Of a DNA stretch of 64,000 bases, positions 1,028-6,786 are shown piece after piece. The stretch is from Halorubrum depositum (GTDB lineage: Archaea; Halobacteriota; Halobacteria; Halobacteriales; Haloferacaceae): NCBI RefSeq assembly GCF_007671725.1, contig NZ_VCNM01000002.1, positions 496,001 to 560,000 on the forward strand. Reading direction: 5' to 3'. Both the position numbers and the translations under genes were made by a program. The notes under the pieces were generated by a model. The model saw nothing but the letters and a program-made list of their open reading frames with translations. It was not told the DNA's origin and made no database searches. Numbering within the stretch: the stretch's first letter is position 1; the number at the start of each line of letters is the position of its first letter.

Positions 1028-2608
1028 TTACTGGTTCCGCTGGTGGTGGTCGTCTCCCGGGTCCGAGTCGTACTCGACGGTCGCGTCGACGGCCGCCGCG
1101 TAGGAGCGATACGGCTCGACGTCGCGGACGGGGTCGGCGAGCGGGCGGTGGTCGACGATTCCGGCGGTCTCGACCGCGGGGAACCGGCTCTCGACCAGCC
1201 GGATCGCGTCGAACGCGGGGCCGTCGGCGAAGACGGCCGCGGTCGGGTGCTCCTGGACGATCCGCTGGGCCGCGCCGGCCGGCCGGTGACGCGTCTCGCT
1301 CAGCCCGTCGTCGTCGGCGTCGGCGACGCGGGCGTCCGACCAGTAGTTCCCGCGGTCGGTACCGTTCCAAGCGACGAGCTCGCGGGTCGTCGTCAACACC
1401 GGCACCTCGTTCTCGACGAAGCCGTTGCCGACGACGGTCGTCCCCGAAGTCCCGGCGGAGTGGTGGACTCCGACGCCGTTCGCGTACAGGAGGTTCCCGC
1501 GGACCTCGTTGTGCTGGGCGTTGTAGAGGAACATCCCCTGGTCGTTGGCGACGAGGTCGTTGTCGCGGACGACGCTGCGGTCGATCTCCTTGAGCAGGAT
1601 CCCGTGGCCGCTCTCGCCCCGGTTCGCGACCGCGGTGTTGTTGACGACCTCGATGGAGTCGCTGACCATCAGCGCGTACCCCACGTCGTTCTCGAAGGCG
1701 ACGTTGTCGGCGATCCGGTTGTCGTCCGAGTACATGTAGTGGACGCCGTACCGGAGGTCCCACAGCGTGTTCCCCGTCGCCTCGACGTCGGAGGCCCACG
1801 AGTAGTAGATCCCGTCGCGCACGTCCGTAATCGACGTGTCGCGGATCTCGGTCCCCTCCGTCTCCCAGAGGTTGATCCCGTTGCCGCGGTTCGCGAACCG
1901 CGGCGCCTCGGTGCCCTCGATCCGCGAGTCGGCGACCGTCACCTCGTCGGCGCCGTTCACCCAGACGCCGAAGGCGGCGTCGGTGAGGTACAGCTCCGAG
2001 AGCGTCGCGCCCGAGGCGTTCTCGGCGACGTACACCGCGGAGTCCTGCGATTCGAGATTTTCGCCGGTGTCGTCGATCCAGACGCCCTCGACCGCCGCGT
2101 TCGGCGCCTCGAGGACGACGACGCTGTCGTCGCCGCCGCCGTCGATCAGGGCCTCGTGGGTCTCGGCCGCCCGGACCGTCACGTTCGGCTCGTCGACGAC
2201 GACGGGTTCCGCCGGCTCGAAGACGCCGGAGAGCTCGACCGTATCGCCGGGCTCCGCGGCGTCGACCGCGGCGTTCAGGTCGTCGTACGTCTCGCCCGGC
2301 GCGTCACCGGCGTCGTCGCCCGTCGCGTCGCCCTCGCTCGCGTCATACGATCCGCCGCCGCCCGCGCTCACGACCGTCGCGGTTCCCGACGCCGTCGGCC
2401 GCGCCGGGTCGTACGTCGGCGGGTCGACGACCGGCTCGTCGGTCCCGTTCGCGGCGCCGGCGGCGGTGCTCCCGGCTCCGTCGCCGGCCACGGCGCCACC
2501 CCCGGTCGCCGCGACGACGCCGCCGAGGACGGCCGCGAGCACGACGGCGGCGGCGACGAAGACCGCGCGCGCCGAGACGAGGCCGGCGACCGACGGGCGC
2601 CGGGTCAT
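1028..2608 (-). CDS. nosD: Periplasmic copper-site maturation protein NosD
   Basis: A 526-residue exported protein. Residues about 8-30 form a hydrophobic Ala/Val-rich signal or anchor segment. From about residue 120 there are repeated short beta-strand units with N, G, V and D spacing (right-handed parallel beta-helix, NosD/CASH type), including recurring elements such as NTAVANRG and YMYSDDNRIADN. NosD proteins are needed to assemble the copper centre of nitrous oxide reductase on the outer face of the membrane. It starts with ATG overlapping the stop of the preceding membrane-protein gene by one base and is followed at once by nosF. The long Gly/Ala/Asp linker (about 30-115) is typical of secreted haloarchaeal proteins. 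Confidence 0.93.
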   Translation of the reverse strand: MTRRPSVAGLVSARAVFVAAAVVLAAVLGGVVAATGGGAVAGDGAGSTAAGAANGTDEPVVDPPTYDPARPTASGTATVVSAGGGGSYDASEGDATGDDAGDAPGETYDDLNAAVDAAEPGDTVELSGVFEPAEPVVVDEPNVTVRAAETHEALIDGGGDDSVVVLEAPNAAVEGVWIDDTGENLESQDSAVYVAENASGATLSELYLTDAAFGVWVNGADEVTVADSRIEGTEAPRFANRGNGINLWETEGTEIRDTSITDVRDGIYYSWASDVEATGNTLWDLRYGVHYMYSDDNRIADNVAFENDVGYALMVSDSIEVVNNTAVANRGESGHGILLKEIDRSVVRDNDLVANDQGMFLYNAQHNEVRGNLLYANGVGVHHSAGTSGTTVVGNGFVENEVPVLTTTRELVAWNGTDRGNYWSDARVADADDDGLSETRHRPAGAAQRIVQEHPTAAVFADGPAFDAIRLVESRFPAVETAGIVDHRPLADPVRDVEPYRSYAAAVDATVEYDSDPGDDHHQRNQ

Positions 2609-3423: not shown

Positions 3424-5502
3424 CTATTCGCTCGGCTCGACGAGGAATCGCGAGCGCATCTCCAGGTGGAGCGCGCTACAGAAGTACGCGCAGTACGCCC
3501 AGAACACGCCCGGCTGGTCGGCCGTGAACGTCACTTCGCGGGTGTCCTGGGGCGCTAACGCGAGGTTGATGTCGTACTCCGGGATCGCGATCGAGTGGAT
3601 CACGTCGCTCGTGGTCTCGACGTTCGAGATCTTGAGGTGAACCTCGTCGCCCTCCCGCAGGGTGACCTCCGGGAAGGCGTACTGGTTGCGGCGCGCCCAC
3701 ATCTCGATCTCGACGGTGCTCTCGTCGACCCGCTCGAAGGACTCCTCGCCCTCGGCGACGTACTCCAGCTCGTAGTCGTCCGGGTCCCACGTCTTCGCGG
3801 GGTCGATCTTGTCCTTGTGGACGATGCTGGCGTCGTGCGGCTCGGGGTACGACGGCTTGTCCTTCACCAGCTGCATCCCGGCGTCGTCGTCGCCGATGTA
3901 GAACAGCTGGTCGTTCTCGGGGTGGATCGGCCCCACCGGCAGGAACCGGTCCTTCGAGAGCTTGTTCAGCGAGACGAGGTAGTCGCCCTGCGGCGACGCC
4001 GTGTACGACTCCGCGGCGATGAGGTGGCCGGGGTTGTAGTGAACGTCGTGGCGGTCGACGACCGGCTCCTCGGAGCCGGCCTCGGCCTCGACGGCGGCCT
4101 CGTAGTCCCACTTGACGACCTCGCTGTCGATGAACGTCGTCGTGTACGCGTGGCCCCGCCCGTCGTAGGCGGTGTGGAGCGGCCCCATCCCGATCCGGGG
4201 CTGGCCCACGATGGCGTCCTGCGGGTCGTCGACCTCGGCGATCGCCTCGATGTCGATGACCGTACAGCTCGGGTCGAGCTTCCCGGAGGCGATGGCGTAC
4301 TTCCCGTTCGGCGTCACGCTGACCCCGTGCGGGCTCTTCGGCGTCGCGACGTAGCGGACGATCGGGCGGTCGCCCTCGTTGAGCGAGCTGTCCATCGTCC
4401 CGTCGACGACGGGCACGCCGCTGATCTCCTCGTAGTTCCCGGCCTCGACGGCGTCCCAGATCGCTGGGATGTCGAACGCCTTCACGTAGTCGCGGTCGGA
4501 GCGGGCCATCTCGCCCTCGGTGGTCCCCTCCTCGCTGTTGTAGCCGGTCGCGAAGAACCAGCGGCCCTCCTTGCCGCCGTCCCCGTTGTCCATGTTGCCG
4601 TCGACCTCGACCTGCCACTCGACGTCCATCGTCTCCGGGTCGATGGCGGTGATGACGGAGCCGTACTCGTCCGGGCTCTGCACGTCGCGGCCGTCGTTCG
4701 GCATCGGGACGCGGAACTCGCCGACGCCGAAGACGAGCTGCGTGTCCGGCAGCTGCATGCAGGCGCCGTGGACGCCCTGGCAGTTCGGGACGTTCGTGAT
4801 CGCGTCCGTCTCGAAGTACTCCAGGTCGACCCGGGCCATCCGCCCGTTCGCCTTGTCGTTGACGAACAGCCAGCGGCCGTCGTAGTCGTTGTCGGTCTGG
4901 GAGACGCGCGGGTGGTGGGTGTCGCCCCACACGTGGCCGTCGCCCTCCTCCTCCAGCATCCGACTCGTCTTCGCGTCGTGGCCGTAGCCGCGCGCGCTCT
5001 CGGCCTGGAACACCGGGATCCGCATCAGCTCGCGCATCGAGGGGAGACCGACGACGCGGATCTCGCCCGTGTGACCCCCGGAGAGGAAGCCGTAGTACTC
5101 GTCGTGCTCGCCGGGCGCGACCGAGTGCTCGCCGCTCCCGGCCGCGCCGCCCGAGTCGTCGTCCTCGTCCGCGAGGATGCTCGTACAGCCCGCGAGCCCG
5201 CTCATCGCCCCGACGGCGGCGCCCGCCTTCATGAAGTCTCGCCGGCCGAGCTCCAGGCGCGGGAGGTCGAGGCTCGGGCGCTTCGCCGCGGTCGCGTCGG
5301 TTCCTTCGGCGGTCGAGGCGATGTCGCGCTCGTGGTCGGTGAGCAGGTGCTCGATCGTCCGCCCGTCGACGATCTCCGGCTCTCCGTCGGCCGCGTCCGT
5401 TCCGTCTGCCGGTTCCGTCTCGCCCGCGTCCGCGGGCGTCTCGTCGCGCTGTTCGTCGGCCGCTGCCGTCCGCTCGTCGCTGGCGTTGGGTTGGGAAGTC
5501 AT
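3424..5502 (-). CDS. nosZ: Nitrous oxide reductase NosZ (Tat-exported)
   Basis: A 692-residue enzyme reducing N2O to N2 outside the membrane, the last step of denitrification. The seven-bladed propeller contains the His-rich CuZ-type segments (for example LSGGHTGE, GDTHHPR, KSPHGVSV, GHAYTTTF, EPHDAS). The C-terminal cupredoxin carries the CuA motif CAYFCSALHLEM. A twin-arginine motif GRRDFMK lies at about residues 86-92 and a lipobox-like LAGC ends at residue 106, so a Tat lipoprotein is likely. About 85 acidic residues precede the twin arginines, which is unusually long. The ATG overlaps the stop of the BlaI-type regulator gene by 4 bases, which supports this start. Expression is expected under oxygen limitation. 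Confidence 0.97.
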   Translation of the reverse strand: MTSQPNASDERTAAADEQRDETPADAGETEPADGTDAADGEPEIVDGRTIEHLLTDHERDIASTAEGTDATAAKRPSLDLPRLELGRRDFMKAGAAVGAMSGLAGCTSILADEDDDSGGAAGSGEHSVAPGEHDEYYGFLSGGHTGEIRVVGLPSMRELMRIPVFQAESARGYGHDAKTSRMLEEEGDGHVWGDTHHPRVSQTDNDYDGRWLFVNDKANGRMARVDLEYFETDAITNVPNCQGVHGACMQLPDTQLVFGVGEFRVPMPNDGRDVQSPDEYGSVITAIDPETMDVEWQVEVDGNMDNGDGGKEGRWFFATGYNSEEGTTEGEMARSDRDYVKAFDIPAIWDAVEAGNYEEISGVPVVDGTMDSSLNEGDRPIVRYVATPKSPHGVSVTPNGKYAIASGKLDPSCTVIDIEAIAEVDDPQDAIVGQPRIGMGPLHTAYDGRGHAYTTTFIDSEVVKWDYEAAVEAEAGSEEPVVDRHDVHYNPGHLIAAESYTASPQGDYLVSLNKLSKDRFLPVGPIHPENDQLFYIGDDDAGMQLVKDKPSYPEPHDASIVHKDKIDPAKTWDPDDYELEYVAEGEESFERVDESTVEIEMWARRNQYAFPEVTLREGDEVHLKISNVETTSDVIHSIAIPEYDINLALAPQDTREVTFTADQPGVFWAYCAYFCSALHLEMRSRFLVEPSE

Positions 5503-5882
5503 TGTCGGGTGGTGGCGTCGGCTCCGTCGTCCGCTCCGCCGTCGCCGTCGGATTCCGTTCGGACCGCGATCCGCTCGACCGCCGAGTCGCCGAGGACCGT
5601 CCGCAGTTCGGCTTCGATCTGCGGAACGAGCCGGTCGCGGGCGGCCTCGGCGTCGAAGCGGTAGCGGTGTCGCGTCGTCCCCCGGAGCCGCTCCGCGCCA
5701 CGGTCGACGAGCCCCTTCTCGACGAGCCGGTCGACGGTCCGCTTCACCGTCGTGTACGCGACGTCGTCGCCGCGGCCCGTGACCGCGTCGTGCAGGTCGC
5801 GGGCCGTGAGGGAGTCGTCGGCGCGGCGCAGGACGGCGAGGAGCTCGCGTTCCCGCGGTCCGAGCTGTGTCCACTGGGTCAT
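5499..5882 (-). CDS. BlaI/MecI/CopY-family winged-helix regulator
   Basis: A 127-residue protein. The N-terminal two thirds form a winged helix whose recognition segment AYTTVKRTVDRLVEKGLV (42-59) closely matches the BlaI/MecI/CopY family; the remainder is an acidic, Arg-containing tail without cysteines. Family members are dimeric repressors released by a protease or by metal. Here no sensor protease lies next to it, and the gene overlaps nosZ by 4 bases, so regulator and N2O reductase are made from one message. Autoregulation through the dyad 37 bases upstream of the start is inferred. Copper status is an attractive signal because NosZ is a copper enzyme, but no metal ligands are evident. 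Confidence 0.85.
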   Translation of the reverse strand: MTQWTQLGPRERELLAVLRRADDSLTARDLHDAVTGRGDDVAYTTVKRTVDRLVEKGLVDRGAERLRGTTRHRYRFDAEAARDRLVPQIEAELRTVLGDSAVERIAVRTESDGDGGADDGADATTRQ

Positions 5883-5895
5883 GGGTGGTCGGAGC

Positions 5896-5980
5896 CGAAC
5901 GCCGTGGTTCGACCCCGCTACTGATCAGTACGGTCTAACCCCGGGGGTAGCTGTCGGCGAACTGTTCGGGGGTTTAAGTA
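5896..5980 (-). promoter_or_regulatory. Control region of the nos operon with three dyads
   Basis: Between the two regulator genes are a perfect 12-base palindrome TACTGATCAGTA (5919-5930), a dyad CGAAC-N6-GTTCG (5896-5911) and a tighter dyad CGAAC-N1-GTTCG (5958-5968). On the minus strand an AT-rich TACTTAAA (5973-5980) is the best TATA candidate. GGTTAGA (about 5933-5939) is a weaker one closer to the gene. BlaI/CopY operators are dyads with TAC and GTA arms, so the palindrome suits the downstream regulator. The CGAAC/GTTCG arms resemble, from memory, the cis element proposed for haloarchaeal denitrification genes. Binding assignments are inference. Confidence 0.6.
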
Positions 5981-6786
5981 CTATCCCCGGTCCCGAACGT
6001 CTGCGAGAAGAGCGCCGCCGTCACGATTCGGAGGTGTTCGGACACCGTGGACTTCGCGAGATCGAACTCGGCCGCGACGTCGGCTGCGGAGACGCCGCCG
6101 GTCTCGAAGTACCCCTTCTCGGCGGCGACCGTCGCGATCTCGGCCTGCCTGTCGGTCACGCCCGCGAGGTCCACCGGGACGATGTCATCGCAGCCGCCGG
6201 CCTCGTCGCCGCCTCCGCGGTCGACGCAGAGCCGGCGGAGCTCGACGTCGAGCCCGGCGGCCTCGCACTCGTCGACGATCGCCTGCAGCTCCTCGTGGCC
6301 GCTCAGGACGAACGACACCTGGATCTCGCCGTCGACGATCTCGGTCCGCCGCGGCGACACCGGGAAGCTCCCGAACGCCGCCGGGAGTCCGCCGCAAGAA
6401 CACCCCGCGCAGGGGGCGTCGCTCTCGGCCACGAGCGAGCGGTCCGGCGCGTGGGCGCCCGCTCCGTCGGCCGGGTCGGACGGTGCGTCAGCGCCCGATG
6501 CGTCGACAACGACGCCTCCGTCGGTGGCCGCGTCGTCGGCTGCGCGGTCCCCGTCGGCGTCCCGACGCTCGCAGGCGATCTCGTACCGGCCGTGCGCCCG
6601 GCCGCCGAACTCGACGAGGTCGAGGCCCGTCGGCGGTTCCTCGGGCGGGTCGGCGGCGACGAACTCGACCCGGTCGTCCGCCGAGTCGACCCGCAGGTCC
6701 TCCACCGCGGTGCTCGACGAGAGCGCGGCCACGGGACAGCCGTCGCAGGCCGACATCGCGAGTTCGACGTGGATCCCGTCGGTCAT
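5974..6786 (-). CDS. Cysteine-rich HTH-10 (bacterio-opsin activator type) regulator
   Basis: A 270-residue cytoplasmic regulator. The C-terminus (about 205-265) is an HTH-10 domain with DRQAEIATVAAEKGYFE and FDLAKSTVSEHLR, as in Bat, DmsR and NarO proteins of haloarchaea. The N-terminal part has nine cysteines (14, 17, 72, 126, 129, 131, 174, 187, 199), including CDGC and CAGCSC, suited to an iron-sulfur or other redox/metal sensor. NarO, a Cys-dependent HTH-10 protein, activates denitrification in Haloferax. The exact NarO cysteine spacing is not reproduced here, so this is a relative rather than a clear orthologue. Position 91 bases upstream of the nos operon suggests it activates nos genes. 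Confidence 0.85.
   Translation of the reverse strand: MTDGIHVELAMSACDGCPVAALSSSTAVEDLRVDSADDRVEFVAADPPEEPPTGLDLVEFGGRAHGRYEIACERRDADGDRAADDAATDGGVVVDASGADAPSDPADGAGAHAPDRSLVAESDAPCAGCSCGGLPAAFGSFPVSPRRTEIVDGEIQVSFVLSGHEELQAIVDECEAAGLDVELRRLCVDRGGGDEAGGCDDIVPVDLAGVTDRQAEIATVAAEKGYFETGGVSAADVAAEFDLAKSTVSEHLRIVTAALFSQTFGTGDST

Follow-up and report, generated by a model that had tools for sequence, protein, structure and literature searches.

Organization of the nos locus

The analyzed DNA, referred to here as the window, is a 64-kb stretch of contig C2 of a Halorubrum-group genome (labelled G000) and carries a nos operon that runs leftwards. The operon comprises, in order, the gene for a BlaI-like winged-helix regulator (wHTH; 5499..5882), nosZ, which encodes nitrous oxide reductase (3424..5502; TIGR04244, 690 bits, over the cut-off), the gene for a membrane protein, nosD (1028..2608; Pfam NosD) and further genes. 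Upstream of the operon, and in the same direction, lies a gene (5974..6786) for a second regulator, which is of the NarO/DmsR type and is referred to below as the HTH_10 regulator. The preliminary description had placed regulators of two different families on either side of the control region, and this is borne out by Pfam, with the wHTH matching Penicillinase_R (PF03965; 36.5 bits, cut-off 22.6) and the second protein matching both DmsR_N and HTH_10 over their cut-offs. Just left of the window (L233:6546-7202), a predicted HU-like DNA-binding protein is encoded that looks like a tandem duplicate.

The two regulator genes are separated by a gap of 91 bp, inside which all three dyads reported in the preliminary description are indeed present, namely CGAAC-N6-GTTCG (the N6 dyad, 5896..5911), the perfect palindrome TACTGATCAGTA (5919-5930) and CGAAC-A-GTTCG (the N1 dyad, 5958..5968). 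Because the operon and both flanking genes read on the minus strand, to which all features of the control region are likewise assigned here, N1 is the promoter-proximal one of the two CGAAC/GTTCG dyads, and N6 lies ~14 bp ahead of the wHTH start codon.

Taken singly, each dyad is unremarkable in 64 kb: the N6 dyad is expected 0.34 times per 64 kb, the palindrome with at most two mismatches 0.16 times per 64 kb, and perfect 12-mer palindromes, whatever their letters, number 53 in the window. Their joint occurrence within 91 bp exceeds chance, as two CGAAC/GTTCG dyads within 91 bp were found in none of 5,000 dinucleotide shuffles and at only 19 of ~63,900 window positions. On the strength of this shuffle test and of the conservation described below, a chance origin of the dyads is rejected.

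Conservation of the control region

Haloarchaeal nos loci were gathered by NosZ searches, and the regions upstream of nosZ were compared, as the preliminary description had suggested. The N1 and N6 dyads were found to be kept at a fixed spacing of 46 bp in 19 Halorubrum-group genomes, one of which has a single N6 mismatch; the half-sites of the N1 dyad are invariant in all 19 nos loci. For the comparison of alignment columns, 18 orthologous loci were taken as functional and G134 was left out. Half-site columns proved invariant in 19 of 20 cases, against 20 of 53 for the other columns (Fisher p = 6e-6, a value that overstates the independent evidence since the rows are related), and the spacer of the N6 dyad is free to vary. 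An RNA hairpin at the N6 dyad was considered and is disfavoured, the stem letters being invariant with zero compensatory changes. At L021, L024 and L049, NosZ is 66-68% and the wHTH 72-82% identical to the window proteins and the control region is conserved, a pattern reminiscent of a replacement of nosZ beneath a retained control region.

The palindrome itself is not what is conserved: only five of the 18 loci have it in perfect form, and it sits inside an asymmetric conserved block, GACCGTACTGATCAGTAGCGGGGT (5912..5935), whose left half, GTA-N-TGATC, is invariant and whose right half varies, continuing to GCGG-N-GT. The preliminary description had proposed a BlaI/CopY-type repressor at the palindrome, for which the Penicillinase_R-like nature of the wHTH and the perfect symmetry here and in a few relatives may be cited. 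This proposal does not hold up as a conserved arrangement and is considered highly improbable, since most of the 18 loci do not keep the symmetry, TACTGATCAGTA does not match the CopR-CopY operator consensus KACANNYGTM (PMC7253601), and conserved cysteines are absent from the wHTH, which hence lacks the C-terminal CXC metal site of that family (PMC7253601). The nearest solved structure to the wHTH, and its best profile hit, is Rv1846c (2g9w). The structure model of the wHTH is of low confidence (pLDDT 64), and the Foldseek matches, a mixture of winged helices, carry little weight; the relation to BlaI is therefore one of sequence.

Linkage of the wHTH gene to the N6 dyad

The wHTH gene is present as the first nos gene in exactly the 19 genomes that possess both the N1 and N6 dyads (as a fragment in G134). 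Its orthologs were found only in nos context, and none was detected in any other of the 170 family genomes searched. Likewise, the N6 dyad occurs in all wHTH-bearing nos loci (with the one single mismatch) and is absent from every other nos locus; the remaining 43 haloarchaeal nos loci from the named hits lack both the wHTH gene and the N1 and N6 pair. Instead, 31 of these 43 carry, at most 1.2 kb upstream, an exact CGAAY-N2-RTTCG, i.e., the published N2 box (PMC10062603), typically ~36 bp ahead of a TATA box as judged by eye. Many N2-type nos promoters of haloarchaea, including those of L072, L074, L077 and L087, also have a second, weak dyad (TTCC-N8..10-GGAA) between the N2 box and the TATA box. 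G000 itself keeps N2 boxes near the nirK cluster and before two divergent genes just outside the window, where two such boxes lie 47 bp apart (L233:4791-4849) between genes for a DUF2249-like protein and a membrane protein.

These distributions suggest that the probable targets of the wHTH are the N6 dyad and the middle block, which would form a putative regulatory layer found at nos only. The tie is one of co-occurrence, and the relic loci do not separate the N6 dyad from the wHTH, as two breakpoints fall inside the dyad. Because the N6 dyad shares the half-sites of the N1 dyad, which are here assigned to HTH_10 proteins, an HTH_10 protein may also bind there, and the N6 dyad is accordingly proposed as a second operator for either of the two regulators.

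The same proposed operator at nar promoters

Pattern searches underlie the genome-wide statements on G000. Among its CGAACWGTTCG sites whose surroundings were read, one besides that of nos has a TATA-like box; this site reads GTATTTAAACCGCCGAACAGTTCGG and precedes the nar operon. A search of 392 order genomes found the composite TTAAAY-N3-CGAAYAGTTCG in 11, which all belong to a single genus, and only at nos- or nar-type loci, one relic included. When one mismatch was allowed, a search of 170 family genomes returned three extra single near-matches, in other genera. At the divergent nar operons of G131 and G144, no N1 dyad was seen.

A comparison of ten nar promoters revealed a match between operator and adjacent regulator. 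All six nar loci with an adjacent intact HTH_10 paralog, 42-49% identical to the HTH_10 regulator of the window, possess the operator CGAATAGTTCG (the CGAAT form), while all four without such a paralog possess CGAACAGTTCG (the CGAAC or nos form; Fisher p 0.005, with kinship uncorrected). Among these four, G120 retains a weak C-terminal match and the DNA of G135 a similar trace. Common descent is insufficient to explain this match, since the operator states interleave on the nar gene tree, where well-supported branches force at least three changes and the best tree has four. Spread of the promoter stretch by recombination may be an alternative explanation of the nar pattern; loss of the paralog probably preceded the change of operator. 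A halocyanin promoter just left of the window (L233:3528-3538) consists of TTTTATA, 8 bp and CGAATAGTTCG, and its relatives carry the C form; G000 has the T form there without a nar-adjacent paralog, which is an exception to the nar rule.

Candidate binder of the N1 dyad

The co-variation at nar points to DmsR/NarO-type HTH_10 proteins as the candidate binders of the N1 dyad. The nos- and nar-adjacent HTH_10 groups have in common the HTH segment AKSTVSEHLR, as fits their nearly identical operators, and the window protein has, by alignment, the conserved cysteines C14, C17, C126, C129 and C131. Counting against this assignment are the T form at the halocyanin promoter of G000 and three further DmsR_N proteins that G000 encodes. 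No copy of the dyad that might serve autoregulation was found upstream of the HTH_10 gene in the window or in nine relatives. At L049 and L152 (H. lipolyticum, G122), the nos locus has lost the HTH_10 gene except for a C-terminal remnant; in G122 the intact gene lies at another site, close to a further HTH regulator that has a TATA and N1 site of its own.

Alternatively, the wHTH might bind both CGAAC/GTTCG dyads as a local autorepressor, with the HTH_10 regulator acting elsewhere. The perfect co-occurrence of the wHTH with the N1 and N6 dyads would fit this, as would their intact state in L049 despite loss of the adjacent HTH_10 gene. It is nevertheless regarded as improbable: the N1 dyad is also present at nar and halocyanin promoters, as well as in relics from genomes that lack the wHTH, the operator letter at nar tracks the HTH_10 paralog, and G122 keeps its HTH_10 gene at another place.

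Predicted promoter architecture

The N1 dyad, here proposed as the operator of the HTH_10 regulator, is preceded at a distance of 3-4 bp by a TATA-like box (CTTAAA, 5973..5978) that overlaps the HTH_10 stop codon; the same composite of TATA box and N1 dyad occurs at nar. TTAAAC is invariant in the 18 functional nos loci and broken in two of four relic loci, and the distance between TATA box and dyad varies among related promoters, as would be expected of a real TATA box. The predicted start region (5949..5952) is placed at an invariant A 26 nt from the start of the TATA box. With TTAAA as the TATA box, the N1 dyad would span positions ~-16 to -6, and its location between the TATA box and the predicted start makes repression the simplest mode, which suggests that it is a promoter-embedded, repressing operator.

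The preliminary description had instead envisaged an HTH_10 activator at the dyads. Its choice of protein agrees with the co-variation at nar, which makes HTH_10 the best candidate for the N1 dyad, but the term activator is doubtful given the position of this dyad between the TATA-like box and the predicted start. An activating role may nonetheless apply, because known N2 boxes activate (PMC10062603). In such a scheme HTH_10 would act as in other haloarchaea, the N1 dyad being an upstream activating box, TTAAAC part of an extended site and GACCGTASTGATCA the core promoter. In Haloferax mediterranei the nos promoter is less active when its N2 box is mutated (PMC10062603), the N2 boxes lie ~36 bp upstream of TATA, and at nar the nucleotide following TTAAA varies together with the dyad, all of which would accord with activation. 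However, the middle block is not rich in A and T; TTAAA is kept at both nos and nar, unlike the region at nar that corresponds to the middle block; and related promoters differ in their TATA-to-dyad distance. Activation from the N1 dyad is thus judged rather unlikely, albeit the most credible of the alternatives.

A two-regulator model of the nos promoter

The interpretation preferred here, to which a probability of roughly 0.55 is assigned, is that of a nos promoter under two regulators, with HTH_10 at the TATA-linked N1 dyad and the wHTH as a layer peculiar to nos; conservation, co-occurrence and co-variation were observed, and binding, sign, signal and start site are inferred. The DmsR/NarO-type protein encoded just upstream would bind the N1 dyad 3 bp downstream of TTAAAC, and the nos cassette of regulator and promoter would be paralogous to that of nar. 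As the same operator also fronts nar in G000, one regulator could jointly control the step that opens denitrification (nitrate) and the one that ends it (N2O). Repression would be lifted when the conserved cysteine sites change state in response to oxygen, redox or metal. Downstream, in the wHTH leader, the additional nos layer would consist of the N6 dyad plus the asymmetric block, through which the BlaI-like wHTH would most likely act as a repressor of its own operon.

As a tentative evolutionary scenario, somewhat less probable than the model itself, a narO-type regulator and its TATA-embedded operator may have been duplicated as one cassette onto nos, which would thereby have left the N2-box regulon and gained a BlaI-like repressor of its own; loss of the nar paralog together with operator change would then have repeatedly shifted nitrate respiration to the nos regulator.

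Relation to known systems and significance

A CGAAC/GTTCG box with N2 spacing is already known from haloarchaeal denitrification promoters (PMC10062603); at the window locus the spacings are different. The denitrification motif of H. mediterranei, CGAAYATDKTYG, likewise presents these half-sites upstream of nos, yet it has a 2-bp spacer (12-bp motif), lies 69 nt from the start codon and is activating (PMC10062603, PMC11218638). In contrast, spacers of 1 and 6 bp occur in all 19 loci described here, in association with a wHTH gene, and the N1 dyad lies directly downstream of the TATA-like box TTAAAC, ahead of a predicted start site.

Like NarO of Haloferax volcanii and DmsR (PMC10062603, PMC11218638), the HTH_10 protein combines DmsR_N and HTH_10 domains with conserved cysteines and is encoded beside denitrification genes, although its gene lies beside nos, as a paralog of the regulator gene beside nar. 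Hattori and colleagues reportedly described, in 2016, the cysteine motif CXnCXCX7C in NarO. The window protein does not match this spacing strictly: C-x2-C and C-x2-C-x-C are conserved, and CXCX7C was not seen. The wHTH resembles BlaI, MecI and CopY (e.g., Rv1846c) in being a small Penicillinase_R winged-helix regulator encoded by the first gene of the operon that it possibly controls, and differs from them in lacking the CXC metal site and a CopY-type operator.

According to PMC11218638, it is not known which protein binds the CGAAC/GTTCG box of haloarchaeal denitrification promoters. At nar, loss of the regulator and change of the operator coincide repeatedly, which singles out a specific pair of protein and site and thereby a candidate for this protein. 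Furthermore, the findings suggest that these haloarchaea can control the consumption of N2O separately from nitrite reduction, which bears on the release of N2O from salt environments.
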